Virus record (IMG/VR): IMGVR_UViG_3300027708_000210
Coordinates: 1 to 32,728 of that record
DNA length: 32,728 nt
Reading direction: 5' to 3' (one strand)
Source: a virus
A program made the translations under genes and the position numbers. Below the pieces are notes generated by a model. The model ran no database searches and was not told the origin of the DNA. It saw only the letters and a program-made list of their open reading frames with translations. Below, in pieces: positions 3 to 26,500 of the stretch; the stretch's first letter is position 1, and each line of letters starts with the position of its first letter.

Positions 3-1226
3 ATAAATCCAGGTTTATGGAATTTCGTTCCTTCTGCCGGTAGTTTAGCAATTAATTTTGGACAAAACATAGGTTATACTAAGGATTTCTCAGGAAACAC
101 CATTATTGGTTTACCTGATGCCGGAATTTTAGAATATACGGTACAATCAACTCCAACCCCAACTCCAACCATAACACAAACTACAACCTCAGGTTTATTA
201 TTAACACAAACACCAACACCAACAAGAACATCTACACCAACTAAAACGGTAACTCAAACAATTACATCCAGTGTTACACCAACAAGAGCGTCAACCCCAA
301 CTCCAACACCGACATATGTACCATCATCCTTGACGATGACAGTTAACTCAACAGGAAATACTCAGAATTGGTTTATACAAGGTTCTTCAAGTTTTATAAT
401 GACTATTAATTGGGGTGATGGACAAGTACAAAGTTATGTCGGTAATGATAACTACAACCCAACACATACGTATTTAACACAAGGAGATTATATTGTAACA
501 ATAACATCATCAAATTTCTCTTTAATCACTTATTTGGATGTTTCAACATCTTATGGTGACAATAGGTTAAAAAGTATTACAGGGTTAGAAAATTTAACAT
601 CACTTAATACTTTAATTTTAGGCGGTAATTTATTAACATCATTTGACCCAAATCCTTTGGTTGATAGTGTTAGTACATTAGATTTATCTTATAACAATTT
701 AACAACTTTTGCACCAACATTACCATTACCTTATGGTTTAGTTAATTTGTATTTAAATAATAACTCAATTTCAACATTTACACCGGTAGAACCATTACCT
801 CTTAATCTACAAAATATATTTTTGAGTAACAATTTATTAACAAATTTCAATCCATCATATCCAATGATTAATGTGGTTAATTTGGCATTAAATAATAATT
901 TAATTACAGGATTTACACCAACACAGCCTTTACCTATTTCATTAGAAGTGTTAAATTTATCGAACAATTTAATAACAACTTTTGCACCGGCAACACCTTT
1001 TGCAAAATCGGTAAGTGAATTATATTTAAACAACAATAGTTTATCATCATCGGGAATTAATAATGTGTTAGTTTATTTGTCGGGTGTGACCGGTTGGTTA
1101 TCACCAAACAATATAACATTATTTAATCAAAATGGTGGTGGATGTTTAAATAGTTCTGGTGTTGGACGTAACGCTTACCTAAGTTTAACAGGTTTAGGGT
1201 GGACAATTGATGTTGATATGTGTTAA
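3..1226 (+). CDS. Adhesin / tail-fibre-like protein, 3' part only (beta-helix cap, Thr/Pro linker, PKD-like, LRR)
   Basis: The frame is open from base 3 to the TAA at 1224-1226, so the gene starts upstream of the window; the TTG at 330 is internal and not a real start. In order it shows the end of a right-handed beta-helix (motifs NPGLWNF and GNTI..DAGILEY, about 3-140), a Thr/Pro-rich linker (about 150-329), a PKD-like beta-sandwich with WGDG at 411-422 and a HTY..GDY..TIT ending, then about seven leucine-rich repeats of 22-25 residues (582-1079; pattern LxxLxLxxNxLTxFxPxxPLP) and a short C-terminal tail. Such modules usually bind surfaces or ligands, so a receptor-binding fibre or adhesin is inferred. 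The start of the next gene lies 27 bases downstream. Domain calls are by pattern only; attachment to the virion is not shown. Confidence 0.8.
   Translation: MNPGLWNFVPSAGSLAINFGQNIGYTKDFSGNTIIGLPDAGILEYTVQSTPTPTPTITQTTTSGLLLTQTPTPTRTSTPTKTVTQTITSSVTPTRASTPTPTPTYVPSSLTMTVNSTGNTQNWFIQGSSSFIMTINWGDGQVQSYVGNDNYNPTHTYLTQGDYIVTITSSNFSLITYLDVSTSYGDNRLKSITGLENLTSLNTLILGGNLLTSFDPNPLVDSVSTLDLSYNNLTTFAPTLPLPYGLVNLYLNNNSISTFTPVEPLPLNLQNIFLSNNLLTNFNPSYPMINVVNLALNNNLITGFTPTQPLPISLEVLNLSNNLITTFAPATPFAKSVSELYLNNNSLSSSGINNVLVYLSGVTGWLSPNNITLFNQNGGGCLNSSGVGRNAYLSLTGLGWTIDVDMC
150..329 (+). repeat. Thr/Pro-rich low-complexity linker coding sequence
   Basis: Repeated aca/act and cca codons encode TPTPT-type blocks (several separate runs) between the beta-helix cap and the PKD-like domain. 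This is a flexible, mucin-like linker, and a similar Thr/Pro block sits inside the tail sheath at 24430-24540. It is a possible O-glycosylation target, by inference only. Confidence 0.8.
582..1079 (+). repeat. Leucine-rich repeat array (about 7 units)
   Basis: Units of roughly 66-75 bases each encode LxxLxLxxNxLTxFxP with an intervening PLP turn. The nucleotide copies are diverged, so this is a protein-level repeat rather than a recent DNA duplication. Confidence 0.85.
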
Positions 1227-1252
1227 TAAATAAAAAAAAAAACAAAAAAAAA

Positions 1253-4200
1253 ATGAAAAAAATGAAAAAACTATTACTTGCATTAGTATTACTAATCTCT
1301 ATTAATGTTTCTGCAAGAACACTCTATGTGAGTCAATTTGGAAGTGATTCTAATAATGGAACAACAATATCCACACCTTGGAAAACTCTATCACAAGTAC
1401 AGAGTAATGTTGTTAATGGCGATATTGTTTTATTTGCCAAAGGGAGTAAATTTTCTGGTACTCTAAATTTATCAAATAAAAATAACATTTATTTTGGTGT
1501 GTATGGAACAGGTGCCGACCCATTATTTTGGGGTACGGGGTCACAAATTCAAAGTTTAATTGAATTAAATACATGTACAAACATAACATTTTATGGTTGG
1601 AACATTAGTGACACTACTATTTCATTCACAGATAGAAAAATACAAGCCAAAATACAATATGTATTTATATTTCGTAGTTCATCTACAGGTTGTACAATTA
1701 GAAAATGTAGAATGGATAGAATGGGTTATGGTGCATACATTCCTCCATTTAATAATGGTAATACAATGGATTCTTGTGATATTGGAAATCTCAGAATGAT
1801 AAGAAATACTCCGGGAGGTGATGATGATTATGGTGGTGTTCCAATACAGCTTTCTAGTAGAAATAATGTTGTTACTAACAACTACTTTCATGATTGTTAT
1901 GCAGTGAGTTATGATTATGGATTTGATGGCGGAGGTGTAGAGTTTTTTGAAGAGGGTGATACCGTTAAAGGTAATAAAGTAATGTACAATACCTTTATAG
2001 ATTGTGAGGGGTTGTTTGAATTTGGAAGTAATAATGATGGAGTTGCTAGATATCCACATTCTGATAATGTTATTGCATATAATAAATTCATTAACAACAA
2101 TACGGTAGTATATATAAATAACAATGGTCAATATAAAACTAAGGTTAGAAACTTACAGTTTTATAATAATGTAGTGGTACAAACACTACCTAATAAAAAT
2201 CCTGCTGGTAGTAGTGGTATACAGTTTTCAATGGCAATTGATGATGCAACAACCGGAATTATTGTACTTAAAAACAATATATTTCAAGTTAGTAATGGGT
2301 TACCAATAACCCCAAATGGGCAATTTGATGGTGTTAATTTAACTCACACTAACAACATATACAAACTATCTAATGGTAGTGTTACTAACTTTACATTAGG
2401 TGGTACAGAGATTGCTACATCAGGAACTATTTGGGTGAATACATCAGATGCAAATCCTTTAAATTGGGATTATCGTTTAACCTTCACATCTCCAGCAAAT
2501 AATAATGGTGTTGATGTTGGACTTACAAGAGATTTTAATAATAATACTGTTATTCCACCTCCGGATAGGGGAATTTTAGAATATGGAGGTATACCACCTG
2601 CGGCGTGTTCATTTACATATGGTACTTGGTCCGCTTGTATTAATAATGTTCAAACAAGAAGTTATACCGTTTCACCGGTAGGTTGCACAGGGACTCCCGA
2701 CCCTGATAGTATAAGGAAAACTTGTACATCACCAATTGTAACAGGAAGAAAATTTTACTTTAGTACTTCAGGTGATGATGGTAACAATGGATTATCACCG
2801 GCAACTCCTTGGAAAACATTGACTAAATTACAATCATTTAGTACTAGTTCATTACCCGGGGATACATTCGCATTTAAATGTGGGGATGTATTTGCAAATG
2901 GAAATGACCGAAGAATTGCGATGGAGTGGGATGGTCCCTCAGGAACGGCAAGAAATCCAATTGTGTTTACATACTATGGCGATTTAAAACTTGGAAACCC
3001 TAATTTTTTATTTCCAAGACCAACATCCGTTGCGGCCACCAACAGATACAATATGTGTTTTAAAAATGCGTCTTATTTGATTTTTGATGGATTACAATTT
3101 AATGATTTTAGATTTCCGGTTAATGATAAGGTATCGTCAGCATTTACCGCTTCAGGACTAATGTTTGGTGAAAGTATGGATACAAAATCTTTTTATTGTA
3201 CAATCAAAAATTGTTATTTCAGTAATATTGGGTACGGTATTTTGGGTGATTGCGATAATTGCACCATTACCAACAATACTTTCACAAACTTCAAATCGGT
3301 GGGTGATACGTTCGGTATTCACGATATTGGTGCCGATGCACTTCAAATTTCAGGAAAAAAATATAGAATAACTAATAACTACATTAGTGGTAGTTGGGCA
3401 TATTCAAGTGGAACAAATTCTTCTTCAAATGGTTTACTTGGTGGTGCACTTGAAACCATTAATGATTTTGATAGTAGCTTCATTGGATATAATATATTCA
3501 TTGATAACTCGGGTGCAATGGAAGGTGGACAATTCGCAGGTACACAATATGGTCCAAACGATGATACATTTGCATATAATTTATTTATTAACAACTCTAA
3601 TGTAGTTTATGTTAATACAACAAATACTTTTAAATGTACCGCCTACAAACTTCATTATTGGAATAATGTTATTATTGAAAATGAAAAATCGCGATTTACA
3701 GGTAGAAATAATGGTGGGGATGCGTTAGGTAACGGACAAACATATTCTTCTACAGGATTTTTATATTGGCCTCCAATACCTCCAAGTAAATCAACTTTTA
3801 CTCCTCAGATATACAATTATTATTCTAATTGGAGAACTTTTGATTGTGGTGACCAATCATTTGTGCCGGGAGACACTCTTTATGATATTAGAAACAATAT
3901 TATTTGGAATACAAATGGTTTACAATTAAAATCTAGTGTTGCTAGAAGACCAAAAGACCACTATAGAAATAACATATATCACATTAAAGGTAGTTATCAA
4001 TTGGCAACAAATCTTGGAGATGATGCGGTATTAGACATAGGAGAAAAAATTATAAACGGAAGATTGTTTGTTGATACATCAAACGCTTTTCCACAAAATT
4101 GGGATTTGCATATTGTTGATACGTCATCAGCAATATTAGGAGGAGTAAATGTGGGTATTTTAAAAGATTATGGAGGAAATACTGTATCAGGAAATCCAAC

Positions 4201-4474
4201 AATTGGTGTATACCAATATTCTAAAACTCCAAAACTAACGGCTTCTTCAACAAACGTTACGTGTAAAACGGCGAATAATGGAACGATAACCGCTAGTGCA
4301 AGTGGTGGAACATCACCTTATCTTTATAAGATAAACAATTTAACCTATCGTAGTTCAGGTAGTTTTACAGGTTTAGCACCAAACACATATACTGTTTATG
4401 TTAAAGATTCGAAGGGGGTTGTAAGTACATTGACTGTTACGATAAAATCAAGTAATGTTGTTTGTACTCCTTAA
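1253..4474 (+). CDS. Secreted-looking double right-handed beta-helix protein with C-terminal SprB repeat
   Basis: I chose ATG 1253 (1073 residues) over the in-frame GTG at 1220, which overlaps the previous gene and only adds a poly-Lys lead; ATG 1262 is also possible. Residues 1-21 look like a Sec signal peptide (MKKMKK, then a Leu/Ile-rich core, with a likely cut after NVSA). Two tandem beta-helix domains follow, each opening with a YVS/YFS..GxDxNNG...TPWKTL motif (about residues 24 and 500) and ending with a NxNWD...G..VG...D..GNTV cap. Between them is a Cys-rich stretch with TWSAC (about 451-490), faintly thrombospondin-like. Residues about 995-1060 match the SprB repeat (VTC..NNGTI...GGTSPYLY...GLAPNTYTVYVKDSKG), a Bacteroidota surface-adhesin module. 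No pectate-lyase catalytic set is recognisable. The role is probably host-surface binding; a signal peptide on a phage fibre is odd. Confidence 0.88.
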   Translation: MKKMKKLLLALVLLISINVSARTLYVSQFGSDSNNGTTISTPWKTLSQVQSNVVNGDIVLFAKGSKFSGTLNLSNKNNIYFGVYGTGADPLFWGTGSQIQSLIELNTCTNITFYGWNISDTTISFTDRKIQAKIQYVFIFRSSSTGCTIRKCRMDRMGYGAYIPPFNNGNTMDSCDIGNLRMIRNTPGGDDDYGGVPIQLSSRNNVVTNNYFHDCYAVSYDYGFDGGGVEFFEEGDTVKGNKVMYNTFIDCEGLFEFGSNNDGVARYPHSDNVIAYNKFINNNTVVYINNNGQYKTKVRNLQFYNNVVVQTLPNKNPAGSSGIQFSMAIDDATTGIIVLKNNIFQVSNGLPITPNGQFDGVNLTHTNNIYKLSNGSVTNFTLGGTEIATSGTIWVNTSDANPLNWDYRLTFTSPANNNGVDVGLTRDFNNNTVIPPPDRGILEYGGIPPAACSFTYGTWSACINNVQTRSYTVSPVGCTGTPDPDSIRKTCTSPIVTGRKFYFSTSGDDGNNGLSPATPWKTLTKLQSFSTSSLPGDTFAFKCGDVFANGNDRRIAMEWDGPSGTARNPIVFTYYGDLKLGNPNFLFPRPTSVAATNRYNMCFKNASYLIFDGLQFNDFRFPVNDKVSSAFTASGLMFGESMDTKSFYCTIKNCYFSNIGYGILGDCDNCTITNNTFTNFKSVGDTFGIHDIGADALQISGKKYRITNNYISGSWAYSSGTNSSSNGLLGGALETINDFDSSFIGYNIFIDNSGAMEGGQFAGTQYGPNDDTFAYNLFINNSNVVYVNTTNTFKCTAYKLHYWNNVIIENEKSRFTGRNNGGDALGNGQTYSSTGFLYWPPIPPSKSTFTPQIYNYYSNWRTFDCGDQSFVPGDTLYDIRNNIIWNTNGLQLKSSVARRPKDHYRNNIYHIKGSYQLATNLGDDAVLDIGEKIINGRLFVDTSNAFPQNWDLHIVDTSSAILGGVNVGILKDYGGNTVSGNPTIGVYQYSKTPKLTASSTNVTCKTANNGTITASASGGTSPYLYKINNLTYRSSGSFTGLAPNTYTVYVKDSKGVVSTLTVTIKSSNVVCTP

Positions 4475-4594: not shown

Positions 4595-5845
4595 ATGAAA
4601 ATTTTTATTCAAATTGCGTCTTACAGAGACCCCCAATTAGTCCTTACTATCAAAGATATGATTGAGAAGGCAAAAAATCCAAAAAATTTAAGATTTGGTA
4701 TTGCGAGACAATTTCATCCTGACGATAAGTTTGATGATTTATCTGAGTATTCTAAAGATAAAAGATTTAGAGTGTTAGATATCCCATATAACGAATCTAG
4801 AGGTGTTTGTTGGGCAAGAAATCTTACACAACAACTTTATCAAGGAGAAGAATATACCATGCAAATTGACTCTCATATGAGAGTTGAACAAGATTGGGAT
4901 AAAACTCTTATTGACATGATTAAACAACTTCAAAAGAAAGGTCATGAAAAACCTTTGTTAACGGGTTATGTTTCATCGTTTGACCCTGACAATGACCCAG
5001 CGGCAAGAGTTAGAGACCCATGGAGAATGGTGTTTGATAGATTTATCCCTGAGGGTGCTGTATTCTTTTTACCTGAAACAATTCCAGGATGGCAAGAATT
5101 AACAGAACCAATACCTGCAAGATTTTATTCAGCACACTTTTGTTTTACAGTAGGAGAATTCTCAAATGAAGTACAACACGACCCTGAGTATTATTTCCAC
5201 GGTGAAGAAATATCTATTGCCGCAAGAGCGTACACATGTGGATATGATTTATTCCATCCACATAAAGTAGTTATTTGGCATGAATATACTCGTAAGGGTA
5301 GAACAAAACAATGGGACGATGATAAAGAGTGGGGTGAAAAAAATAGAATCGCGCATTTAAAAAATAGAAAACTATTTAGTATGGATGGAGAAATCTATAA
5401 TCCTGAAGAGTTTGGTAAATACGGATTCGGAACTGAAAGAACTTTAATGGATTATGAAAAATTCTCAGGTCTTTTATTTGGTGATAGGTCAGTTCAACAA
5501 TACACGTTAGATAAGAACTATCCTCCAAATCCTTATAATTTTGAAACTGAAGAAGAATGGAGAAAAAGTTTCGCTAAAATATTTAAACATTGTATTGATG
5601 TGGGTTATGACCAAGTCACTGAAAAGGATTACGATTTTTGGGTTGTGGCATTCCACAGTGATGATGACGAAACTATATTTAGAAAAGATGCTGATAGAAA
5701 TGAAATTGATATGATGATGAATGACCCTGACGGATATTGTAAAGTATGGAGAGAATTTCAAACCGCACATAAACCAGCATATTGGGTGGTATGGCCTCAC
5801 TCAGAATCTAAAGGTTGGGGTAATAGATTAACAGGGAATTTATAA
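4595..5845 (+). CDS. GT60-like GlcNAc-type glycosyltransferase
   Basis: The 416-residue product resembles the GlcNAc-transferase family that includes Skp1 and mucin-type polypeptide GlcNAc-transferases (GT60, Pfam GlcNAc). It opens with FIQIASYRDPQL (4-15), has a DxD-like DSH at 92-94 inside YTMQIDSHMRV, and carries HGEEISIAARAYTCGYDLFHP (202 onward) followed by WHEY (228-231), which is the family's acceptor and catalytic end. These enzymes transfer GlcNAc from a nucleotide sugar to hydroxyl groups on proteins in the cytoplasm. About 150 C-terminal residues are outside the recognisable core and unassigned. It is the first gene of a five-gene operon and is followed one base later by the next gene. 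No TATTTAT motif precedes it. The acceptor here is unknown. Confidence 0.85.
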   Translation: MKIFIQIASYRDPQLVLTIKDMIEKAKNPKNLRFGIARQFHPDDKFDDLSEYSKDKRFRVLDIPYNESRGVCWARNLTQQLYQGEEYTMQIDSHMRVEQDWDKTLIDMIKQLQKKGHEKPLLTGYVSSFDPDNDPAARVRDPWRMVFDRFIPEGAVFFLPETIPGWQELTEPIPARFYSAHFCFTVGEFSNEVQHDPEYYFHGEEISIAARAYTCGYDLFHPHKVVIWHEYTRKGRTKQWDDDKEWGEKNRIAHLKNRKLFSMDGEIYNPEEFGKYGFGTERTLMDYEKFSGLLFGDRSVQQYTLDKNYPPNPYNFETEEEWRKSFAKIFKHCIDVGYDQVTEKDYDFWVVAFHSDDDETIFRKDADRNEIDMMMNDPDGYCKVWREFQTAHKPAYWVVWPHSESKGWGNRLTGNL

Positions 5846-5846
5846 T

Positions 5847-6632
5847 ATGAAAAAAATAGCATTCGTTTCGGGATACTATACATATGGTGGTAATAAAGGA
5901 ATTAGTGATAACAATCGTTTTATGTACGATTGTTTATACAAAACCGCTAAAAAGTATTTTTTAAAATCACATGATGTTGATTTAATATTCATAAGTAACG
6001 ATGATATTGAAATAGATGGTGTTAATAATATAAAAATTGACCACGAATTAGTAGGTTATGACCATATGTTATTAATGAAGATTTTAGGTATAAATTTTAT
6101 AGAACAAAAATATGATTATATATTTGTATCTGATGGTGACCAAATCTTTATAAATGATGTTAACGATGAAGATTTATTAGATTCCGACTTTTCATTTTTT
6201 GACCACTATTTTAAACCAACGATTAAATCTATTTTACCTGAAATATCCGATGTTGTGGATTTAAATTTTGACACGACAAAAGAAACATGGACTATGGGTA
6301 ATTTTTTTGGTGGGTCTCAAGAAGTTATGTTGGATTTATTAAAACATACTAAGGAATATCATGAAAAATATTTAGGACAAGTGTTCTCAACTAGAGGTTT
6401 CTATGCCAGATATCCTGACGAAATATTTTTACTTAAGTACGCTTTTGAAAATAATGTACCACATAAACGATTGAGATGTACGATAAACCCTGTTGAGTCG
6501 TCAGAAAAATTTTTCTTATCGGACTTCACAATAGATGAGTCACAATATATTCTTTTTACTAACACAAAATTAATACACGATACTAAAAGAAATTTAGAAA
6601 CATTAAAAAAAATAATTAATAATTATATCTAA
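5847..6632 (+). CDS. GT6-like glycosyltransferase
   Basis: The 261-residue product has the layout of family GT6 (the ABO / alpha-1,3-galactosyl- or GalNAc-transferase superfamily). It has N-terminal IAFVSGYYTYGG, a DxD metal/nucleotide-sugar motif DGD at 96-98 within YDYIFVSDGDQIFIN, GNFFGGS at 151-157 (the GT6 acceptor loop is typically xGAFFGG) and a late acidic pair DE at 191-192 in YPDEIFLL. Bacterial GT6 members are soluble and about this size. There is no signal peptide or membrane segment, so cytoplasmic action is likely. It starts one base after the previous stop. The exact sugar cannot be read from sequence. Confidence 0.75.
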   Translation: MKKIAFVSGYYTYGGNKGISDNNRFMYDCLYKTAKKYFLKSHDVDLIFISNDDIEIDGVNNIKIDHELVGYDHMLLMKILGINFIEQKYDYIFVSDGDQIFINDVNDEDLLDSDFSFFDHYFKPTIKSILPEISDVVDLNFDTTKETWTMGNFFGGSQEVMLDLLKHTKEYHEKYLGQVFSTRGFYARYPDEIFLLKYAFENNVPHKRLRCTINPVESSEKFFLSDFTIDESQYILFTNTKLIHDTKRNLETLKKIINNYI

Positions 6633-6644
6633 AATAAAAAAAAC

Positions 6645-7973
6645 ATGAACAAAATTGTAGTTTGTCAATATTGGACAAAAAATTTAAGCTACGGTCAGTA
6701 TACCGAGGCAATCAATAAAAAATATTGTGAAGAACAAGGTTACGTCTATCACAATGAAGTGGATACTGATAAGATATTCGCAAACTTAGATGGTAGGGCT
6801 ATTACTTGGTATAAGCCAAAGTTCATCTTAGAAGTGTTGGAGACACATAATCCTGATTTTATTTTATTCTTGGATGCGGACGCTATTGTTTGTGATTCCA
6901 ATTATAGAATAGAAGAGTTTATTGACGATAATTATAATATTATTTGTACTGAAGATTATGGACCTAGTAAATTAAATGCCGGTGTTTTTATTATGAAAAA
7001 CACAGAATGGACTAAAAATTTCTTACAAAAATGGTGGGATATTTGTGACGAATTAACCGGAGGCGAACAAAATCAAAAAGGATATTACGCAAATGCGTTA
7101 TGGCATGACCAAACATGTTTCGGTCATTTAATGTCGGCATTACCTGACGCAATACAAAACATTAAATTAATTAGTAATAAAGTATTAAACGGTAGAGATT
7201 ATAAAAATTCTGTTGATAAAAACTTTATTTTTCATGCCTTTTCTTATGGTATGATTAATAACAGAACTATTGATAACGCATATTACGATATCTTTAATGT
7301 AACAAAACCGACAGGTAAAGAACTTATTGATGTAGTACAATATTATAACACCGATAAACATCACGAACATAATTACTTTAATTTAATTTATAGCGAATTA
7401 TTTAAAAATAACTACAAAGAAGTTAACAAATTTATTGAGATTGGTGTTCTTGATGGAGGTTCTGTTGAGTTATGGAGAGATTATTTTGTAAACGCTGAAA
7501 TTATTGCTCTTGATTATAACATTCAGAATACTATAAATAAACTATCAGGTAAGAATTTAGATAGAATTACATTCCAAAGTATTGACCAATCAGACCCGAT
7601 TCAGTTAGAGGAATTAACCACCCAATATAGTGATGTGGACGTTATTATGGATGACGGTTCACATAGAATGTATGACCAACAAATCACATTGGCTAAAACA
7701 TTTAAAATGTTAAAATCAGGAGGAATTTATGTCTTGGAAGATTTACATACAAGTTTAGAAGCGGGTAAACCTGAAAAAGCTTGGTGTGGTTGGGGAGACG
7801 CAACAAAAACCATTACTTTAGATATGTTAAACGAATTTAACATGACGGGTAAAATTAAGTCAGATTATATGACCGAAGAAGAATGTGATTATTTAACCAA
7901 CAATATTAAAAGTATTGATGTCTACAGAAACAGAGCCGATTGGAGCATAACTAGTGTTATTATAAAAAAATAA
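6645..7973 (+). CDS. Two-domain protein: GT34-like glycosyltransferase fused to a SAM-dependent methyltransferase
   Basis: Residues 1 to about 215 look like the GMA12/MNN10 (GT34) fold: VVCQYW, KPKFILEVL, a DADA metal motif at 77-80, NAGVFIMKN at 111-119 and WHDQTCF at 153-159. Residues from about 225 to 442 form a class I methyltransferase: YYNTDKHHEHNYFNLIYSEL, a glycine-rich SAM motif EIGVLDGGS (265-273), ALDYN (288-292) and DDGSH (336-340), then GGIYVLEDLH. This second half resembles sugar O-methyltransferases of the macrolide (MycE-like) type. A bifunctional enzyme that adds a sugar and methylates it is inferred. The operon position is tight (12 bases after the previous gene, 2 before the next). 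Confidence 0.8.
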   Translation: MNKIVVCQYWTKNLSYGQYTEAINKKYCEEQGYVYHNEVDTDKIFANLDGRAITWYKPKFILEVLETHNPDFILFLDADAIVCDSNYRIEEFIDDNYNIICTEDYGPSKLNAGVFIMKNTEWTKNFLQKWWDICDELTGGEQNQKGYYANALWHDQTCFGHLMSALPDAIQNIKLISNKVLNGRDYKNSVDKNFIFHAFSYGMINNRTIDNAYYDIFNVTKPTGKELIDVVQYYNTDKHHEHNYFNLIYSELFKNNYKEVNKFIEIGVLDGGSVELWRDYFVNAEIIALDYNIQNTINKLSGKNLDRITFQSIDQSDPIQLEELTTQYSDVDVIMDDGSHRMYDQQITLAKTFKMLKSGGIYVLEDLHTSLEAGKPEKAWCGWGDATKTITLDMLNEFNMTGKIKSDYMTEEECDYLTNNIKSIDVYRNRADWSITSVIIKK

Positions 7974-7975
7974 AT

Positions 7976-8941
7976 ATGATAGGAATAGTATATCACAGTT
8001 TTCTAACCGGAAATTGGAAAGAAGTTGTCTTAGGTCAATTAAGACGATTAAAAGAATCAGGGCTTTATGATAAATCAGACATTATTTGGTTTACTGTTAA
8101 TCTTAACGGTAATGATGAAAGTGTTTTTGATGAAATTGCTAAAGAGTATCCAAAGGCAAATATAGAATATAATGTTGATAACCATGCGGAATATCCTGGT
8201 ATAAGAAAAGTGAAAGAACTTGGTGATTCTCATGATGATTTAAAAATATTATATTTTCACTCTAAAGGAGTTAGTAATGATTATGTTGTTTCACACATAA
8301 AAACAAGAAGTGAAACTAAACATAAAAATGTTAACTCATGGAAAGAATGTTTAGAATATTTTGTTATTGATAAATGGGAGGATTGTATTGAGAAACTAAA
8401 CGAATATGATAATGTTGGTGTTACTTGTAACAGTAATTGGTTTTGGGGTAACTTTTGGTGGTCTCAATCAAGTCATATTAAAAAATGTTCTGAAGTCGGT
8501 ATATGGGGTAGATGGGATTATGAAGCTTGGTTAAATAGAGGTGTTGATTCTCCTAAGAATTACGAATACTATAAATTTACTTATAATCCATACTTAACTT
8601 ATTTTGAACCTGATTGGTATAAGAACCCATTAAAATTAAAGGGGTCTAAAATTACTTTACATAAGGCATTATATGGTACCGCCGAATTCCAAATTGACGA
8701 AGGGTACGCAAGTACTGAATTAGGTATTACCACAGATGTTACTGATATTATTAATAAAAAATTAGAGAGTGAAGATTTTAAAAGGTTATACTTTAGGGTT
8801 GATAACGATACGATGGGTGGTGACCCAATATATGGATATAAAAAAGTATTAACAATTGATTTTTCATTAGATATTGAACCAAATAAAATATATACGGTTG
8901 GTATTGGCGAAGACCAACAATTAGATTTAAATTTTAATTAA
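7976..8941 (+). CDS. Probable glycosyltransferase of unassigned family
   Basis: The 321-residue product shows an IGIVYHSFLTGNWK start, LKILYFHSKGVS near 86-97, CNSNWFWGNFWWSQSSHIK near 150 and a WGRWDYEAWLNR element. The YFHSKG and GNFWWSQ elements recall sugar-transferase-like proteins of phage and surface-polysaccharide clusters, but I cannot name a CAZy family, and no clear DxD motif is visible. The C-terminal 100 residues (after HKALYGTAEFQID) look like a separate beta-rich domain. It is in the same operon, two bases after the previous stop and one base before the next start. The function is inferred mainly from context. Confidence 0.6.
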   Translation: MIGIVYHSFLTGNWKEVVLGQLRRLKESGLYDKSDIIWFTVNLNGNDESVFDEIAKEYPKANIEYNVDNHAEYPGIRKVKELGDSHDDLKILYFHSKGVSNDYVVSHIKTRSETKHKNVNSWKECLEYFVIDKWEDCIEKLNEYDNVGVTCNSNWFWGNFWWSQSSHIKKCSEVGIWGRWDYEAWLNRGVDSPKNYEYYKFTYNPYLTYFEPDWYKNPLKLKGSKITLHKALYGTAEFQIDEGYASTELGITTDVTDIINKKLESEDFKRLYFRVDNDTMGGDPIYGYKKVLTIDFSLDIEPNKIYTVGIGEDQQLDLNFN

Positions 8942-8942
8942 A

Positions 8943-10625
8943 ATGAATAAAAATATTACTATTGTAACCGGACTTTGGGATATGGGTCGCGGAGAACTTG
9001 ATGGGTGGGCTAAAAGAGATTTTACCTCGTATAAAGATAGATTTTTTGAAATGTTAGAATCAGATGCACAAATGTGTATTTGGATACCTAGAGATTTAGA
9101 AGAAGATGTCATTAGAATTAGAAAAGATAAACCAACTAAAATTTTTATTAAAAATTTAGAAGATTTTGAAACATGGAATCCTTTTTATAGTAAAATACAA
9201 GAGATTAGAACCAACGAAAATTGGTTATCGTTAGCAGGGTGGTTAAGAGAATCCCCTCAAGCGTCGTTAAAGTTTTATAACGCGATGATGTTTACCAAAA
9301 TGTTTATGTTAAACGATTCTGCAATTGTTAATCCATTTAATTCGGAATATTTCTTTTGGATTGATGGGGGATTAACAAATACGGTAAATAAAGGATACTT
9401 CCAACATGATTTAGTTTTGGATAATTTAGATAATTACGTAATAAAGAATGACGGTAAATTTGTTCATTTAGCATATCCTTATGAACCAACAAACGAAATA
9501 CATGGTTTTGAAAAAAATGCAATGGCGAAATTTTGTAACGTTAGTTCAGTAAATTATGTTTGTCGTGGCGGTTTTTTTGGTGGAACTAAGAGTAAAGTTC
9601 ATGATATTAACAACCTTTATTACTCAGTAATGGATACCACTTTAAATAGTGGATACATGGGGGCTGACGAATGTTTATTTACAATACTAACACATAGACA
9701 TGAAGATATCATTCATAAGTTTGATATTGGTGGTAACGGTCTTGTTTGGCCGTTTTTTGAAGAGTTAAAAAATTATAAAACAGAGATTATTAAAAATGAT
9801 GAAACTTTTTTAAATCCTGATAATACGGCATTATATGTAATAACATTTAATAGTCCAAACCAACTTCAAACATTAATTGATTCTATGTACGCATATGATT
9901 CCAATTTTGTTGATAAACCTAAAAAATTCTTATTAGATAACTCAAGTGATTTATCAACAACTGAGAAGTATTCTGAGATATGTAATAAATATAATTTTGA
10001 ACATATTAAAAAAGATAATTTAGGAATATGTGGAGGAAGACAGTGGGTTGCTGAACACGCAAATGATAATGGATTTGATTATTATTTCTTTTTTGAAGAT
10101 GATATGTTTTTCTATCCAAAAAAAGGTGAGGTATGTAAAACAGGATTTAATAGATATGTTCCCGATTTATACAGAAAATCAATAAATATTATTAACAAAT
10201 ATAAGTTTGATTTTTTAAAACTTTCTTTTAGTGAATTTTTCGGGGATAACGGGACTCAGTGGTCTTGGTATAATATTCCTCAGAATGTAAGAAATGAACA
10301 CTTTCCTGATAAGCCAAATTTACCTGTACATGGTACCGACCCTGACGCACCAAGAACCAATTTTAAAAACATTAGATTTTATGAAGGTTTAGGAGTCATT
10401 AATGGGGATGTGTATTATTCAAATTGGCCTCAAGTTGTTAGTAAGGTGGGTAATAAAAAAATGTTTTTAACTGAAAAATGGGATAGACCTCACGAACAAA
10501 CGTGGATGTCGTATATGTTCCAAAATACAAGAAAGGGGGAATTAAATCCCGCTTTATTATTGTTAAGTCCAACAGAACACAATCGTTTTGATTTTTATGA
10601 TGGTTCGTTAAGAAAAGAATCTTAA
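8943..10625 (+). CDS. HtrL/YibB-like protein fused to a GT-A (GT2-like) glycosyltransferase
   Basis: Residues 1 to about 280 match the HtrL_YibB pattern (IVTGLWDMGRGELDGW, then FWIDGG at 138-143, RGGFFGGT at 208-215 and ADE at 241-243), a GT-A-like family often found in LPS or surface-polysaccharide loci. Residues about 296-560 form a second transferase: YVITFNSPNQLQTLI (298-312), NLGICGGRQW (359-368), a metal-binding EDDM at 385-388 in FFFEDDMFFYP, and WDRPHEQTW near 520. It is the last gene of the glycosyltransferase operon. A promoter-like motif and a new transcription unit start right after it. Whether both halves are active cannot be told from sequence. Confidence 0.75.
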   Translation: MNKNITIVTGLWDMGRGELDGWAKRDFTSYKDRFFEMLESDAQMCIWIPRDLEEDVIRIRKDKPTKIFIKNLEDFETWNPFYSKIQEIRTNENWLSLAGWLRESPQASLKFYNAMMFTKMFMLNDSAIVNPFNSEYFFWIDGGLTNTVNKGYFQHDLVLDNLDNYVIKNDGKFVHLAYPYEPTNEIHGFEKNAMAKFCNVSSVNYVCRGGFFGGTKSKVHDINNLYYSVMDTTLNSGYMGADECLFTILTHRHEDIIHKFDIGGNGLVWPFFEELKNYKTEIIKNDETFLNPDNTALYVITFNSPNQLQTLIDSMYAYDSNFVDKPKKFLLDNSSDLSTTEKYSEICNKYNFEHIKKDNLGICGGRQWVAEHANDNGFDYYFFFEDDMFFYPKKGEVCKTGFNRYVPDLYRKSINIINKYKFDFLKLSFSEFFGDNGTQWSWYNIPQNVRNEHFPDKPNLPVHGTDPDAPRTNFKNIRFYEGLGVINGDVYYSNWPQVVSKVGNKKMFLTEKWDRPHEQTWMSYMFQNTRKGELNPALLLLSPTEHNRFDFYDGSLRKES

Positions 10626-16101: not shown

Positions 16102-17748
16102 TTATGATAAATATTCAGAACAGTTCATAAATTTAATATTATTACTTCCTTGTAATGTCATAAAATTATTTTGTTTTGGTATTTTAAAATCAGTTTTCTT
16201 AACTGTCACATTTTCAGTTTTAAATATTCTGACTTTTTTCTTTTTTATATTAACAAATATTAACAAATCAACTTTAGTATATTCTTTAGCCCCCGAAGAA
16301 CCACTTATAATAAAATAATTATCTATTTCAATTTCATTAGTATATGGTTTAATTTGCCCTGTTAAAATTTTAGATTCTATATTAATAGTAGCATCAATAC
16401 CTGACATCATATCACTCGTTAATCCACCACCTGAAGTGATTGTACATGCTCCATCACCTAAATTTTCGTCAATTATTTTTTTAGCACCATCCTCATTTCT
16501 TTTACCATAACAATCAGTTGTTCTTAATATCTTCTCAATATGTTTTAAAGTATTAGAACTTTGTCTATCAAACAATCTTGATTTAATACCTTCCATTACT
16601 GAAAAGAATCTTATTAATTGTGATAAGTTTTCTTCAGGATTATCACCATAAACTATAGGTTCTTGATTTGTGTGTTTTAAATGACGATTAATATCATTAT
16701 GTATAACACAAAATGCAGAATATGATGAAGTTAAATTATTCAACAATGACCTTTTATTCTCAGCATCATATAAACCCGGCATATGTCCAACAAATAACTC
16801 ATCCTTTTCTCTCCAATTTTGGGGATATAAACCCTTTAAAAAACTATTCCAACCCTTAACATATTCTTCCTTAAATTTTTTAAGTAATTCCCTTTTTGTT
16901 TTATCCTCAGTATACGAAGGAAATAATAAACTTTTAAATATTTTTTCATCTTCGGTTGAACAAGTATGTGAGTGTCCTGTCGCCTCAAGTAATATTTCAT
17001 TCTCTTTTAACATAAGTTGTGTCATAACTGTTTCTTCGTTTATTTTGGTTTCTAATTTCATTTTGTAAAGTTTCTCAACAAATTCCCAATTTACCGCCTC
17101 CCAGAATTGTTTGATATAATCATCTCTCCTATTTCTATATTTCAAATAATAAGCATGTTCCCACAAATCTAATCCAAGAATTGGATATCCACCATCTTCA
17201 ACGTCGTTCATTAAAGGATTATCTTGGTTTGGGGTGGACATTATTTTTAATTTATTATTTTTCGTAACAATCAACCAAACCCAACCTGAACCGAATCTTT
17301 CTTTTGCGACCGTCTCAAATTTTTTCTTGAACTTGTTAAAGGTATCAAAATCTTTGTTAATCCTTTGTGAAACTAATTCTTTTGGTTTCTGTGGTGTTGG
17401 GGATAACATCTTCCAAAACAATGCGTGATTGTAAGCTCCACCAGCATTATTTCTAATGGTATTATCATACTTGCTAATAGTTTTAACAATTTGTTCTAAA
17501 TCCAAATCACCAAACTTTTCTTTTTCTAAAGCAAGATTTAATTTTTCAACATACCCTTTATAGTGTTTGTTGTAGTGAAAGTCCATAGTTTCGGGGTCAA
17601 TAAATTTCTTTAATGCCGTTTTTGCATATGGTAATTTCTCAATACCTATTTTTTTCATTTCAGTTATAAAAAATTTTTCACTATAATCTTTTTCCTTCTT
17701 AACTATTTCTTCCTCTAACTGTTCTATTCTATTAACTAAGTTTTTCAT
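16102..17748 (-). CDS. Mn/Fe superoxide dismutase fused to a long C-terminal region (possible PD-(D/E)XK nuclease)
   Basis: Residues about 35-232 are a complete Mn/Fe superoxide dismutase, which converts superoxide to oxygen and hydrogen peroxide. All four metal ligands are present: H58, H108 (in NNAGGAYNHALFW), D194 and H198 in the signature DLWEHAYYL. The GG before NH and Q175 in PNQDNPLM favour a Mn-type or cambialistic enzyme. Ordinary SODs are about 200 residues; this one is 548. It has an N-terminal coil (1-22) and about 310 further residues. In these, SGIDATIN (449-456) followed by GQIKPYT (464-470) resembles the D...QxK core of a PD-(D/E)XK nuclease, a weak call. It overlaps the metalloprotease gene by 17 bases. 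It could serve oxidative defence or be a structural reuse of the fold. Confidence 0.88.
   Translation of the reverse strand: MKNLVNRIEQLEEEIVKKEKDYSEKFFITEMKKIGIEKLPYAKTALKKFIDPETMDFHYNKHYKGYVEKLNLALEKEKFGDLDLEQIVKTISKYDNTIRNNAGGAYNHALFWKMLSPTPQKPKELVSQRINKDFDTFNKFKKKFETVAKERFGSGWVWLIVTKNNKLKIMSTPNQDNPLMNDVEDGGYPILGLDLWEHAYYLKYRNRRDDYIKQFWEAVNWEFVEKLYKMKLETKINEETVMTQLMLKENEILLEATGHSHTCSTEDEKIFKSLLFPSYTEDKTKRELLKKFKEEYVKGWNSFLKGLYPQNWREKDELFVGHMPGLYDAENKRSLLNNLTSSYSAFCVIHNDINRHLKHTNQEPIVYGDNPEENLSQLIRFFSVMEGIKSRLFDRQSSNTLKHIEKILRTTDCYGKRNEDGAKKIIDENLGDGACTITSGGGLTSDMMSGIDATINIESKILTGQIKPYTNEIEIDNYFIISGSSGAKEYTKVDLLIFVNIKKKKVRIFKTENVTVKKTDFKIPKQNNFMTLQGSNNIKFMNCSEYLS
16104..16116 (-). promoter_or_regulatory. 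TATTTAT promoter-like motif inside the end of the SOD-fusion gene
   Basis: On the minus strand this reads gaaTATTTATcat, 11 bases before ATG 16092, and also encodes the last residues (EYLS) of the preceding gene. It matches the consensus at 11 of 13 positions, but dual coding makes it weaker evidence than the intergenic copies. Confidence 0.4.
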
Positions 17749-18140: not shown

Positions 18141-18153
18141 ATAATAAATATTA
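18141..18153 (-). promoter_or_regulatory. TATTTAT promoter-like motif abutting ATG 18139
   Basis: The minus strand reads TAATATTTATTAT, starting with the helicase stop codon and ending one base before the start codon. It fills the whole intergenic gap and is identical to the 13925 copy through the ATG. Confidence 0.6.
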
Positions 18154-21033
18154 AGATTTATTGTTTATTAATCTCATAATTTCCTCAACAACATCAACTT
18201 TATCCATATTATCACCCATCACTGTTTCAAAGATATTTTTCTTTTTGGATAGGATATCGTAGATAACTCCTTCTATCGTATTCTCAAAGATAGGATAATA
18301 AACTGAAACATTTGATTTTTGTCCATATCTATACGACCTGTCCTCAGCCTGGCTATGGTCTGAAGGTACAAATGATAGGTCATTCATTATAACCGCTTCA
18401 CCCGCAGTTAATGTTAAACCAACACCTGCCGCTTTAAGATTTCCAACAAATATTTTTATTTTATCATTTGTTTGGAACTCATCCACAGCGTTTTGTCTTT
18501 TAGCTTGAGAACAACTACCATCAACATAGACCGCTTTTTTTCCAAAATGCTCTACCAATTTTTGTAGGGATGCTGTGAAGTTTGTAAATATAATAACTTT
18601 CTTTCCTTGTTCCACAATATTCTCGGCAAGTTCTATTGATGACTCTATTTTTTCATCCGCAATTATCTGTCTAACTTTTGTAAGTTTGGTAAATTGTAAT
18701 GTCATAGATGATGATTCTTCAGCCTTGGTTTTATACCAATCATAATATTCGCCCATTAATTCTTCATATAATTTAGACCTTAATCTCAAATAAACGGGGG
18801 TGATAATTTTGTCAGGTAAATCTAAAACATCTTCTTTTAATCTTCTCAACACTTGTTTAGATGTTCTATCTCTAAGTTCTTCAAGATTAGAAGCCCCACT
18901 TGTATTCCATATTTTTCTATTACCCCCAACTCTAAATTGATACCCTTGACAATATCTAATAACATAAGCCATCCAATTTCCCGCAACAGGATTCTCAATT
19001 AAACTTAATAAGTTATAATAATTGATTGGCCTTGAAGTCATTGGTGTTCCCGTTAATAACCATAGTTTATCAACACTTTTGGCAAAACTATTAATTAATT
19101 TTGTTCTTTGAGCTTGAACATTTTGAAGATAGTGGGCTTCATCAATTATTATTAAATCAAAATTACATTGATAAATCGGACTATTCTCTTTGTCTTTTAT
19201 ATCATAAAAATTTTTAATAATATCGTAATTGGTAATAACAAAATCGTGTTCAGTTGAGAAGTTTTTACTTTCACATATGAAAACACTTCTATCACTATAA
19301 TTCGCAATTTCTCTTTGCCAATTTATCTTAAGGGATGCTGGACAAATAATTAAAATCTTTTTAGCTCCCGTTTCAAGTGCTGCAATAATGGTGGAGGTTG
19401 TATTATGGGTAACTATACAATGTTCCGCAACATATAGTTTGTCCGGAGAATCAACTGAAATACATACAGCATCTCCTTTCCTTTCAAATTCTATTTTTTT
19501 AATATATCTCCCAACTTTATATTTTTGTGGTTCTTTATACAATTCTTTTTTTCTTTGTAATTTGAACGGGTTCATCCCCGATTGTAATTTAATATTTACA
19601 CGATAAGCCTTTTTTCCATTTTTTTTCTCACCGTTATAAGTATATTTTGGAATTCTACTTGATTTACGAGCGATTCCTCCTAAAGTGTGAACTATTTCAA
19701 TCACATCATCTGTAAGTTGTTCGGATATTGAACAAAATTCTGTACCTAAAAATTCATTATTTTTTCTTGATTTATAACAAAAACCGTCTGTATCCATTAA
19801 TCCTTGTAAAATTAGTAACCTATTTTCTATACTTGAATATTTGTAAACATCAGGAATAAATTTTTGACTTGAGTTACAACCCATTAAGTTTAATTGTCTT
19901 AATTTATCAATTAAAGAATTTTTTCCTCTTATTTTTGTAACAATATCGTAATCACAATTATCTCCACTTGTTTTTTTAATTTCTAAATCATCTGTCAATA
20001 GTTTTTTTATTTCTTCAATTATCTCATCATCTATACTACTAAATCTTATACTTTTTGTTATTCCACCGTCACCTAATATTAATCCAAGTAAGTAAGGATG
20101 AATTGGTAATTCTTCATTATTATCAAATGTAATAGGTTTAACAATTGGTATTTGCCATTTTGATTGACCGTTACTTTGAAGATAATATGTTGATTGTAAT
20201 TTATCAAAAGAATTACTATTTCTTGTTACCTTTAACTCTTTATCTAAAAGCTGTTTTGTTGTTAAATTTAACGTTAGGGTTTTTCTACCTTTTGAGTTGT
20301 TTCCATTCGCTCTTGTTGAAACTGTCCATATGTGTTCATCACAACATAATATTGAACATCCGTCATTGAATGTTATTTTGTATAAATCTTTTAGTCCTTG
20401 TGGATAAACCCCTGTTACGTTATGTGAATTACCGTCACTACCTATTACTTTATCCCCCACTTTAATATCTCCCATTTTTTTCACTCCATCAGAGGTATAA
20501 ATTTTTGTATTTATTTCAAGAGCTTTACCCAATCCCATATCATCCGCTAATATAAATCTCTTACTACCGACCAATTTCTCAATGGCTTCTTTTTGATGAC
20601 CTAATGGGGGACGATGTTCGTATTTTGAATAATCAATCTCAACTTGTTCTACCTTATGAGCTTTAATAATTGCGTTCTTCGGTAACCAAAAATCGTGGTT
20701 TGTTTCCCCACTGAATATTTTACCCCAAATATGATATGATTTGTCTTTCTCAACCAATAATTTCTCAACCCAAACTTGTTCAGGAACTACTGTATACAAT
20801 TTTTCATCGGCAATTTTTTGAGCGAAGTAGGGGTCTAAATCAACCCATTTCTTGGCGACTTTAGGTTGGGTGTCGTGAAAATTAATTATATAATCTGATT
20901 GAGCCCGAGTGGGATAAAACTTTTTATTAACTTGTGATTGATGTTTTAATTTAAGGATATAGTTATTTGCACCCTCATAGGTGTCCAAAATTTTTAATGC
21001 GGTTCTTTCAATTAAATGAGTGGTATTTTCCAA
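18151..21033 (-). CDS. SNF2-family helicase interrupted by an intein
   Basis: The 960-residue precursor would leave 586 residues after intein removal. The helicase has an N-terminal domain (1-145), Walker A DDMGLGK (164-170) continuing after the intein with TT (545-546), DEAH at 631-634, LLTGTP (659-664), and a C-terminal RecA-like domain with VIIFTNFTASL (813-823), AGVGLTLTAG (868-877) and QAEDRSYRYGQ (895-905), all typical of SNF2 ATPases. Such phage enzymes remodel replication or recombination intermediates, as T4 UvsW does from a different family. The start is TTG (21033-21031); no in-frame ATG precedes it before an upstream stop, and the first internal Met is inside Walker A. The gene is divergent from 21082 across 48 bases. 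Loss of splicing would destroy the ATP site. Confidence 0.95.
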   Translation of the reverse strand: MENTTHLIERTALKILDTYEGANNYILKLKHQSQVNKKFYPTRAQSDYIINFHDTQPKVAKKWVDLDPYFAQKIADEKLYTVVPEQVWVEKLLVEKDKSYHIWGKIFSGETNHDFWLPKNAIIKAHKVEQVEIDYSKYEHRPPLGHQKEAIEKLVGSKRFILADDMGLGKALEINTKIYTSDGVKKMGDIKVGDKVIGSDGNSHNVTGVYPQGLKDLYKITFNDGCSILCCDEHIWTVSTRANGNNSKGRKTLTLNLTTKQLLDKELKVTRNSNSFDKLQSTYYLQSNGQSKWQIPIVKPITFDNNEELPIHPYLLGLILGDGGITKSIRFSSIDDEIIEEIKKLLTDDLEIKKTSGDNCDYDIVTKIRGKNSLIDKLRQLNLMGCNSSQKFIPDVYKYSSIENRLLILQGLMDTDGFCYKSRKNNEFLGTEFCSISEQLTDDVIEIVHTLGGIARKSSRIPKYTYNGEKKNGKKAYRVNIKLQSGMNPFKLQRKKELYKEPQKYKVGRYIKKIEFERKGDAVCISVDSPDKLYVAEHCIVTHNTTSTIIAALETGAKKILIICPASLKINWQREIANYSDRSVFICESKNFSTEHDFVITNYDIIKNFYDIKDKENSPIYQCNFDLIIIDEAHYLQNVQAQRTKLINSFAKSVDKLWLLTGTPMTSRPINYYNLLSLIENPVAGNWMAYVIRYCQGYQFRVGGNRKIWNTSGASNLEELRDRTSKQVLRRLKEDVLDLPDKIITPVYLRLRSKLYEELMGEYYDWYKTKAEESSSMTLQFTKLTKVRQIIADEKIESSIELAENIVEQGKKVIIFTNFTASLQKLVEHFGKKAVYVDGSCSQAKRQNAVDEFQTNDKIKIFVGNLKAAGVGLTLTAGEAVIMNDLSFVPSDHSQAEDRSYRYGQKSNVSVYYPIFENTIEGVIYDILSKKKNIFETVMGDNMDKVDVVEEIMRLINNKS
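19402..20523 (-). mobile_element. Class 3-like intein with LAGLIDADG homing endonuclease, in the helicase Walker A
   Basis: The intein is 374 residues (171-544 of the precursor), inserted between K170 of GLGK and T545. It begins with Ala instead of Cys or Ser and ends VTHN. It has the Trp-Cys-Thr set described for class 3 inteins: W236 in CDEHIW (block B), C524 in AVCISVDSP (block F) and T542 before HN (block G), with Thr at +1. The two endonuclease dodecapeptides are LLGLILGDGG (315-324, D322) and LQGLMDTDGF (409-418, D416), so splicing and homing functions look intact. Class 3 inteins have been linked to phages and SNF2/DnaB helicases. Boundaries come from the conserved ends and the restored GLGKTT. 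Confidence 0.95.
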
Positions 21034-23564: not shown

Positions 23565-26500
23565 ATGGCAACAAATAGTAAAGTGTTCGTATCTCCCGGT
23601 GTGTATACCTCAGAAAGAGATTTAAGTTTCGTCTCACAAAGTGTGGGTGTAACTACTTTAGGTATCGTAGGAGAATCATTAAAAGGTCCGGCGTTTGAAC
23701 CTATTTTTATAAAAAACTACGACGAATTCCAAACATATTTTGGAGGAACAAGTCCTGAGAAATTTATAAATACACAAATCCCTAAATATGAGGCAGCTTA
23801 TATCGCTAAATCGTACCTACAACAATCTAATCAAATGTTTATGACAAGGATATTAGGATTGTCGGGTTATGATGCAGGTCCTTCATGGTCTATTCAAACA
23901 ATTGCAAATGTTGATACAACTACCGTTGGATTAAATGAAATTTGTGTGTCAATACCAAACTATATTACAAATACTTGTGATATATCTTGTACCGCACAAA
24001 CTATTTCAATTAGTGTTGATTTTACAGGTTGTTCAAATCAAGATGGTTCTATAACTTTCTTATCTAGTTTCCCTGATGAAATTCAAAATATATTAAATGA
24101 ATCATATACTCAGTTTAATGGTGGTACATCAACATTAGAAACAAATATTAAACAACAATTATTAAATGTTTTTTCAAATAACGCATTAGCAAATACAAGT
24201 ATTTACTACTACGGTACAATTGAGGAGGGTGATTATAATACATTGGCACCTGTTTTTACCGCAGGAACTAACGTATTTGGAGTTAATAGTGTTTGTTCAG
24301 GAACTGCTGATTATACGGCACCTGAGAATGACCCTTGGTATTATGCTTTGTTTGAGAACTTTAGTGGTAATAGTTATTCAGGTTATTCATTTTGGACAGT
24401 AGTTCATAATTTAACAATGTTACCTAAATCAACAACCATAACAACCACAGCACCGGCTCCTACACCAACACCAATTCCTAACCCATGTACAACAACAACA
24501 ACAATATCACCAACAACAACAACTACAACTACAGAACCTGATTGTTTTTCAGGAACAGTTGTAGGTAAAATTTATTTATATACAGGTACAAGTTACTCAA
24601 ACTATAATAACTTAGTTGTAAGTACTTTAAGGTCAAGAGGTATTTCTCAATTTAACGCAACACATGACGGACCAACTTATGAAGTTAGTCAGTTAAGTGC
24701 CGTTACTTTGGACTTCAGTGGTTCTTACGCTTCAGTTAAAAAGAATCCTTATTCTGTGTTTGCGGTTAATATAACTAACGACGAAGGAAAATCATTTGTT
24801 TTCAAAGCATCACTTACATCTTCAGATACGACCTACTTACCTAAGGTATTTGGTGTGGATAATTTTGGTAAACCAAGAGCTGATGTTCCTTTATTTGTTG
24901 AAGAAAGATTCCAAAGTTTGTTAAATTGGGCATATAAAAAAGGATTCATTAGAGGATTAAGACAAGAATTAATTCAGTTACCTGAGGCAAGAAGTGAGGA
25001 CCCATCATCAATTGGTTTTTACTCTGAGAGATATCAAGCACCTGAAACTCCATGGGTTGTGTCAGAATTAAGAGGTACTAAAGTTTATAAATTATTTAAA
25101 GTAATTTCTATTGCGGATGGTAATAGTGCTAATGACCAAATTAAAATATCATTTATGAATATGTCATTTGACAATCAAACATTTGATATTGTAGTTCGTG
25201 ATTATTATGACACCGATGACGCACCTGTTGTATTAGAAAAATTTACTAACTGTTCTATGGACCCGGGTTTAAATAACTTTGTGGCCAAAAGAGTAGGTAC
25301 TTCTGATGGTGAATACGCATTAATGTCTAAATTTATTATGTTGGAAATTAATGAAGACGCACCACATGATTCATTACCTTGTGGTTTTGAAGGATATAGA
25401 TTTAGAACTTATGATGGTGTTAAATCTCCATTCCCTGTATTTAAAACAAAATATAACTATCCAGGTGAAGTTATTTTTAATCCTCCTTTTGGTTATTCAA
25501 CAGGAACTGATGACCCAATTGTTAGTTCAGGTGATAATGTTAGAAGAACTTATTTAGGTTTATCTAATAGTGTTGACACAAGTTATGATTTAGATTTCTT
25601 CCAATACGTTGGACTACAAAATTTAAATACAATGTGTGACCCTAAATTACAAGAGTGGGAATTTTTAACTAAAGGTTTCCATATGGATTCGGGAGCTACT
25701 GATATTGTTATTTCTGACAATTACATATCATCAGGAAAAACTGCGTTTGCTTGTGGTGTTGCAGCATTTAGAGAAGACCCAACAAACCAAAGTAATCCTT
25801 ACTATAGATTATACGCAAGAAAGTTCACAGTGTTTGTTGCTGGAGGTTTTGACGGATGGGACATTTATAGAGAACACAGAACTAATACCGATAACTTTGT
25901 TTTAGGTAAGTCGGGATATTTAGCGGGAGCATGTATCAGTGATAGATACCCTAATGCGACAGGTACGGGTTTATTTAGACAAATAACTGTTGGGGATAAC
26001 GTAGTAGATTGGGCAAATACTGATTATTACGCATATTTACTTGGTCAACAAACATTCTCAAATCCTGAGGCTGTTAATATCAATGTATTTGTAACACCAG
26101 GTATTGATTATGTAACTAATAGTAATCTTGTTGAGAGTTCAATTGATATGATTGAGTACAATAGAGCAGATTCTTTGTATATTTGTACAACACCTGACGT
26201 AGTTATGTTAAGTGAAGTGGTTGATTTGATTTATCCACAAGACGCTGTAGATGCTTTGGCACAAACAGGAATTGATTCTAACTACACCGCGACATTCTAC
26301 CCTTGGGTATTAACAAGAGATACGGTTAATAACACTCAAATTTATATCCCAGCAACTGCTGAAGTTACAAGAAACTTGGCGTTAACTGATAATATAGCTT
26401 TCCCTTGGTTCGCATCAGCGGGTTACACAAGAGGTTTAGTTAATTCTATTAAAGCTAGACGTAAGTTAACTCAAGAAGATAGAGATACTCTTTATGTTGG

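Follow-up and report, generated by a model that had tools for sequence, protein, structure and literature searches.

What would a bacterial virus glycosylate with five transferases encoded side by side? The question is raised by positions 4595-10625 of a 32,728-bp fragment of the AT-rich virus record IMGVR_UViG_3300027708_000210 (hereafter the window), whose source is a large freshwater bacterial virus with hundreds of relatives carrying genes of glycosyltransferase (GT) family 60 (GT60). Five plus-strand genes, labelled P0003 to P0007, lie there in head-to-tail order, 1, 12, 2 and 1 bp apart, in agreement with the spacing of 1-12 bp given in a first-pass annotation of this DNA. The first encodes a GT60-type enzyme and the last an HtrL_YibB domain followed by a second GT domain (HtrL/GT). 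Based on sequence comparisons, this operon is probably a phage-encoded, cytosolic, mucin-type O-glycosylation system for Thr/Pro-rich virion proteins. The first-pass annotation had proposed that the operon glycosylates virion proteins, with the tail sheath as its focus; the general proposal is supported by an association between GT60 genes and Thr/Pro-rich tracts, found in surveys and in lineage-matched genomes, and by glycoproteins in the virions of phage XacN1, but the focus on the sheath had to be abandoned.

GT60 genes co-occur with Thr/Pro-rich tracts

We observed that GT60 genes co-occur with Thr/Pro-rich tracts, which lie in adhesins, in proteins of the tail module and in the family of P0008, a small protein encoded directly downstream of the operon. 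Using as criterion a 24-residue segment rich in Thr, Pro and Ser, an open reading frame (ORF) bearing a tract was present in 135 of 160 viral loci with GT60/HtrL genes (8.3 per 100 kb), compared with 1 of 99 neutral viral loci (0.11 per 100 kb). Furthermore, 89 of the 94 distinct GT60 proteins had a tract ORF within the examined flank. At the DNA level, a pattern encoding TPTxTPTxTPT was detected in 46/50 GT60/HtrL records and in 1/50 control contigs; the neutral control contigs were picked by a second pattern, the first being too rare (19 contigs). The reverse survey revealed a GT60 relative in 17 of 50 contigs chosen by the tract pattern against none of 50 controls, and in 11/18 against 0/11 when contigs of at least 85 kb were considered. 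Tract number varies greatly among GT60 phages (L084; the 70-kb G084 (L139), with 236 pattern matches).

The GT60/HtrL loci are not phylogenetically independent, and shared descent could inflate a fifth to a half of these survey comparisons. Because of this possible inflation, a lineage-matched test weighs more. Among 50,697 isolate records, GT60 relatives were found in three, namely phages XacN1, CM1 and RAS14. These complete jumbo-phage genomes contain 29, 19 and 19 (TP)3 sites, respectively, whereas none occurs in 11 relatives without GT60 (Fisher p 0.003). The comparison phages (RaK2, GAP32, CBB, Atu_ph07, SCTP-2, BF, XbC2, XaC1, Phosso, 121Q and Vibrio 2.275.O) were selected via polymerase similarity or the published XacN1 tree; all have genomes of 345-490 kb, and two infect Xanthomonas. 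A single tract criterion, set before the genomes were read, was applied. CM1 and RAS14 are near-identical in the matches seen, so that the carriers amount to at most two independent isolates, and since all three form one clade the test is a single evolutionary contrast.

At least 14 XacN1 proteins carry in-frame tracts, including ORF350, which adjoins a structural protein, ORF369, ORF370 and ORF372 in a block beside the sheath gene, and ORF325 near the GT locus. This locus (ORF334-ORF330) resembles that of the window in combining a GT60 (ORF334, 48% identity) and an HtrL/GT (ORF330, 37%) with intervening genes. It differs in its middle genes, among them the carbamoyltransferase ORF333, and the XacN1 sheath is devoid of a tract. 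XacN1 virions were reported to contain at least two glycoproteins, without site or protein name, and that report mentions neither the cassette, the HtrL partner nor the tracts (PMC5852040). Six neighbouring tract ORFs of XacN1 (ORF232-237, L583 3177-13105), several with similar N-termini (MxDYxVxxTD), are perhaps paralogous appendage proteins.

In the window, the Thr/Pro-rich tracts noted by the first-pass annotation in an adhesin and in the sheath are both real and in frame. The first one, at 150-329 on the plus strand, covers residues ~49-110 of an LRR/PKD adhesin-like ORF (3-1226) whose 5' end is open. The second one (24429-24539, plus strand) spans residues 289-325 of the tail sheath ORF (23565-26897). 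A Ser/Thr-rich end had also been noted in the tape measure; the end of this ORF (29384-31252) is indeed mildly Ser/Thr-rich, but its identity as a tape measure was not confirmed. P0008 (10652-11032, plus strand), a candidate virion component and acceptor family, gave no Pfam or PHROG match. The gene is syntenic in most relatives, and although the window copy bears no tract, 31 of 71 distinct homologues have one within the ORF.

The operon enzymes form a predicted cytosolic pathway

Profile searches bore out three of the family labels in the first-pass annotation (GT60-like for the first gene, GT34-methyltransferase for the third, HtrL-GT for the fifth), and structure prediction gave a fold to the fourth, which it had listed as an unassigned transferase. 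The GT6-like label of the second gene found partial support.

P0003 (4595-5845; 416 amino acids, aa), the first bookend of the operon, matches the Pfam GlcNAc (GT60) profile PF11397 over its catalytic domain (E 2.4e-70, 238 bits, curated cut-off 21) and the PHROG 'glycosyltransferase' family phrog_24687 (E 1e-167). Its DxH metal-binding motif (D92-S93-H94), of the kind that distinguishes GT27 and GT60 (PMC7185993), is invariant in 17 aligned relatives, and at least 379 relatives occur among viral contigs. By analogy, P0003 is the proposed initiating enzyme, with a predicted polypeptide alpha-N-acetylglucosamine (GlcNAc) transferase activity.

The next three genes are variable. P0004 (5847-6632, 261 aa) is rare, with just two relatives among the 163 loci first examined and none beyond those already known in a scan of viral contigs. 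Its own sequence has no Pfam match; a homologue in L084 matches the GT6 profile PF03414 (E 6.7e-4, 19 bits), below the curated cut-off of 25. P0005 (6645-7973, 442 aa) is a fusion of a GT34-type glycosyltransferase (PF05637, E 4.9e-14) and a methyltransferase (Methyltransf_31, E 1.8e-4; phrog_21658, E 7.9e-21). Profile searches assigned P0006 (7976-8941, 321 aa) to no family. However, its AlphaFold model (predicted local distance difference test, pLDDT, 92.8) has a GT-A fold at residues 1-216 followed by an extra C-terminal beta domain. The GT-A part aligns with many GT-A enzymes at Z ~12 (best Z 12.3, root-mean-square deviation, rmsd, 3.2, 170 aligned residues), and the protein has invariant HxKG and WGNFWW motifs. 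No relation between P0006 and P0007 was detectable by profile comparison.

P0007 (8943-10625, 560 aa), the last bookend, has 181 relatives among viral contigs. It combines an N-terminal HtrL_YibB domain (PF09612, E 2.1e-16) with a C-terminal GT domain, which in the predicted model (pLDDT 90.9) is closest to B4GALNT1 (Z 15.6), POMGnT1 (Z 15.4) and GnT-I, with Z 15-15.6 across the three. The tandem GT-A order is that of LH3, LARGE1 and mimivirus R699, with a different inter-domain geometry; the whole chain aligns with the two GT domains of LH3 at Z 14.3 and rmsd 17.8, so the match holds domain by domain. Sequence searches of the PDB with P0003, P0004 and P0007 returned no match.

As the first-pass annotation had held, signal peptides are missing from the five enzymes: hydropathy analysis detected neither membrane helix nor signal peptide in any of them (19-residue windows, maxima 0.78-1.04, all below 1.1), and they would act in the cytosol. 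Trypanosoma cruzi GT60 enzymes form GlcNAc-alpha-Thr on mucins (PMC9472816), and the GT60 and partner GTs of the Skp1 pathway are soluble and cytosolic (PMC8724618). In the pathway that we propose, the GT60 enzyme would act before virions assemble or while they do, attaching a first sugar (by analogy, GlcNAc) to Thr or Ser residues within the tracts. Chain extension would fall to the GT6-like, GT34 and P0006 enzymes, the methyltransferase half of P0005 would cap the chain, and the HtrL/GT enzyme would make a conserved core or carry out a terminal step. In this scheme we infer the order of the sugars, what the methyl group does and any branching of the chain. Glycan bristles formed in this way would make adhesin linkers stiffer and shield them, and would give the virions of different phages a different outer chemistry.

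The C-terminal domain of P0007 also weakly matches TAGT (E 0.007, 16.8 bits, under the cut-off of 27.5) and phrog_842, a beta-glucosyl-HMC-alpha-glucosyltransferase family (E 1.6e-4, over 76 residues), as would be the case if the enzymes glycosylated hypermodified phage DNA. We consider this explanation highly improbable. The TAGT-type match is a short GT-A motif region, P0007 is structurally most similar to enzymes that modify proteins and glycans, and the cassettes of relatives carry carbamoyl-, sulfo- and fucosyltransferases, which are more typical of glycans. No Tet_JBP match was found in 28 large GT60-positive records, which are fragments, and as the control was also silent this result is uninformative alone. 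DNA modification is disfavored by the XacN1 DNA, which is cut by BssHII, NaeI and SpeI (PMC5852040), and by ordinary-looking thymidylate synthases, all six examined carrying the PFN motif expected of deoxythymidine monophosphate synthases.

GT60 and HtrL/GT genes frame an exchangeable cassette

In the 138 examined loci that contain both genes, GT60 comes first and HtrL/GT later, 0.6-9.9 kb apart. Nearly all ORFs between them are co-directional (488/492), and 92% of the gaps range from -30 to +60 bp. The ORFs in between represent 74 families, of which 36 have a single member. Searches with 20 representatives revealed GT25, GT10 fucosyltransferase, GT2, GT1 and PLOD-type GT families, FkbM and RMNT methyltransferases, a carbamoyltransferase, a sulfotransferase and a HAD/nucleotidyltransferase fusion, while 8 of the 20 had no Pfam match. 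GT60 and HtrL/GT thus frame a variable set of glycosyl- and decorating transferases, and the differing content of related cassettes suggests that glycan decoration differs from phage to phage. This layout resembles that of exchangeable bacterial surface-glycan loci, which are usually membrane-linked.

Similar arrangements exist in other lineages. In contig L546, the second gene after GT60 encodes a protein with long TP tracts whose C-terminal domain is that of the crAssvirus muzzle, and the layout of contig L555 is similar. In the bacterium Jiulongibacter (L543), a GT60-carbamoyltransferase-HtrL set adjoins a divergently transcribed gene whose product contains a tract exceeding 100 residues. 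A minimal GT60-HtrL/GT pair was also found in contigs of metagenome-assembled genomes labelled Saprospiraceae, Bacteroidia and Gemmatimonadota.

Dispensable sheath inserts, tract-free loci and other possible targets

Most of ~75 distinct sheaths contain a Thr/Pro-rich insert of near-constant length around a cysteine pair (NPC...C(Y/F)SG), in which poly-Thr and TP versions interchange between relatives. Its Thr codons are mixed (ACA 63%, ACT 26%, ACA being raised), and therefore the insert is not a plain DNA microsatellite. The first-pass annotation had pointed to sheath residues ~289-325 as the focal target and to the co-occurrence of the operon with Thr-rich sheath inserts as a check. When this co-occurrence was analyzed in 28 GT60-positive records with this sheath, the tract was present in 13 and absent from 15, in which it was replaced by a folded domain of ~140 residues (9) or deleted (6). 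The folded domain (L257-L264, L266) sits at the exact position of the insert, at sheath residues ~283-340, and the six other sheaths show a clean deletion at the same position. We rejected the sheath tract as an obligatory substrate; as only 13 of these 28 phages have it, it cannot explain retention of the operon. The sheath may nevertheless be a substrate in the phage of the window.

This dispensability is one of several observations that weigh against mucin-type glycosylation of the tracts. In the contig surveys, shared descent and contig size act as confounders, and 33 of the 50 pattern-chosen contigs, many of them fragments, had no GT60 match. Most tract proteins appear to be virion components from their gene context, the sheath being the clear case, and the XacN1 glycoproteins are unnamed in the published main text (PMC5852040). 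Furthermore, no tract lies within the examined flanks of the GT60-HtrL pairs from Saprospiraceae and Gemmatimonadota. Related phages that keep the operon but have no Thr/Pro-rich virion proteins, a situation contemplated by the first-pass annotation, were encountered once, in the incomplete 219-kb contig G076. It carries GT60, GT34-methyltransferase, P0006-like and HtrL genes, and even a relaxed criterion detected no Thr/Pro/Ser tract in it. The stretch richest in Ser is a Ser/Gly repeat, (SGS)n, at the contig end, and the operon is surrounded by unrelated genes instead of adjoining PolB.

The tract-free G076 operon, the dispensable sheath tracts and the chromosomal pairs without nearby tracts would all be accommodated if the operon glycosylated sites outside the tracts, in proteins of the virion or in others of the phage, the tracts being flexible spacers that occur in the same lineages. 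We regard this as unlikely, since the link between GT60 and tracts holds in lineage-matched complete genomes and is also seen in the Jiulongibacter and crAss-type loci, and since known GT60 acceptors are Thr-rich mucins (PMC9472816).

A further possibility is that the enzymes modify host surface glycans during infection, thereby masking receptors or excluding superinfecting phages. A class of phage enzymes for serotype conversion is known, bacterial chromosomal GT60-HtrL pairs adjoin genes for secreted or outer-membrane proteins, and in Burkholderiaceae GT60 homologues lie beside type VI secretion system genes. Under this explanation, no association with Thr/Pro tracts of phage proteins is expected, and known GT60 acceptors are polypeptides. 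Moreover, besides being free of membrane helices and signal peptides, the operon proteins included no Gtr-type membrane-bound GT, flippase or lipid-carrier GT in hydropathy and family searches, making a role at the host surface quite unlikely.

In L551, the neighbours of a GT60 homologue (~10001) are the type VI secretion gene for TssF (626 aa) and genes for an RHS protein and a fimbrial adhesin. L549, L550 and L552-L554, from other Burkholderiaceae and a Neisseriaceae bacterium, have a similar GT60 layout.

Other features of the window

The large plus-strand ORF at 1220-4474 combines a hydrophobic, signal-like N-terminus with a SprB repeat, a Bacteroidota gliding-adhesin motif that hints at a Bacteroidota host. 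On the minus strand, 16102-17748 encodes an Fe/Mn superoxide dismutase (Sod_Fe_C, E 4.7e-40; Sod_Fe_N, E 1.1e-22), here in a phage, with a fused C-terminal region to which no function is assigned. Also on this strand, the SNF2-type helicase encoded at 18151-21033 is split near Walker A by an in-frame LAGLIDADG intein (residues ~172-546). Scans of the window for Rfam families and tRNAs found nothing.

Discussion

Glycosylation of phage virions has been described before, and so has mucin-type glycosylation by GT60 enzymes. A literature search that covered few subscription journals found no earlier report of phage mucin-like or threonine-rich glycosylation, nor of the cassette framed by GT60 and HtrL/GT or its association with Thr/Pro tracts. 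The phage GT60 shares its Pfam family and DxH motif with the T. cruzi O-GlcNAc-transferase (OGNT) and the Dictyostelium/Skp1 GlcNAc-transferases. As in protist mucin systems, the phage genome has Thr-rich acceptor-like tracts, and as in the Skp1 pathway, soluble cytosolic enzymes are proposed to act, with other GTs extending the first sugar. Unlike the protist systems, the genes belong to a prokaryotic virus and form a single operon with a swappable cassette; the proposed acceptors are virion adhesins and tail proteins, and linkage and sugar are predicted.

Mycobacteriophages and chloroviruses likewise encode GTs, which are proposed to modify structural proteins independently of a secretory pathway. 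In the account of mycobacteriophage virion glycosylation (Freeman et al. 2023, cited in PMC12619734), the glycans are at the C-termini of capsid and tail-tube subunits, whereas in the system of the window, encoded by a bookended and variable gene set, GT60 would initiate glycans on internal Thr/Pro linkers. Moraphages, aquatic jumbo phages of Bacteroidota, possess four core glycosyltransferase orthogroups for which virion targets were suggested but left open (PMC12619734). Like them, the phage of the window is aquatic and large, probably has a Bacteroidota host and encodes several glycosyltransferases, a likeness of description only.

In a broader proposal, for which the arguments on either side seem to us evenly balanced, phages and a few bacteria would share a modular and widespread prokaryotic system of mucin type in which a conserved GT60 initiator, an HtrL/GT partner and rapidly exchanged decorating enzymes build bottlebrush-like, phage-specific coats on the Thr/Pro linkers of adhesins and tail proteins. 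Mucin-type glycosylation of the tracts predicts glycosylated tract peptides in virions of XacN1, RAS14 and CM1, isolates that can be grown. If it is correct, large phages would own a mucin-like coat, made in the bacterial cytoplasm by relatives of the enzymes that initiate protist mucins. This would explain the many glycosyltransferases of such phages and the odd Thr/Pro tracts of their adhesins. Variable glycan cassettes would then be a new axis of phage surface diversity, with a bearing on adsorption, mucus binding and escape from antibodies and proteases.

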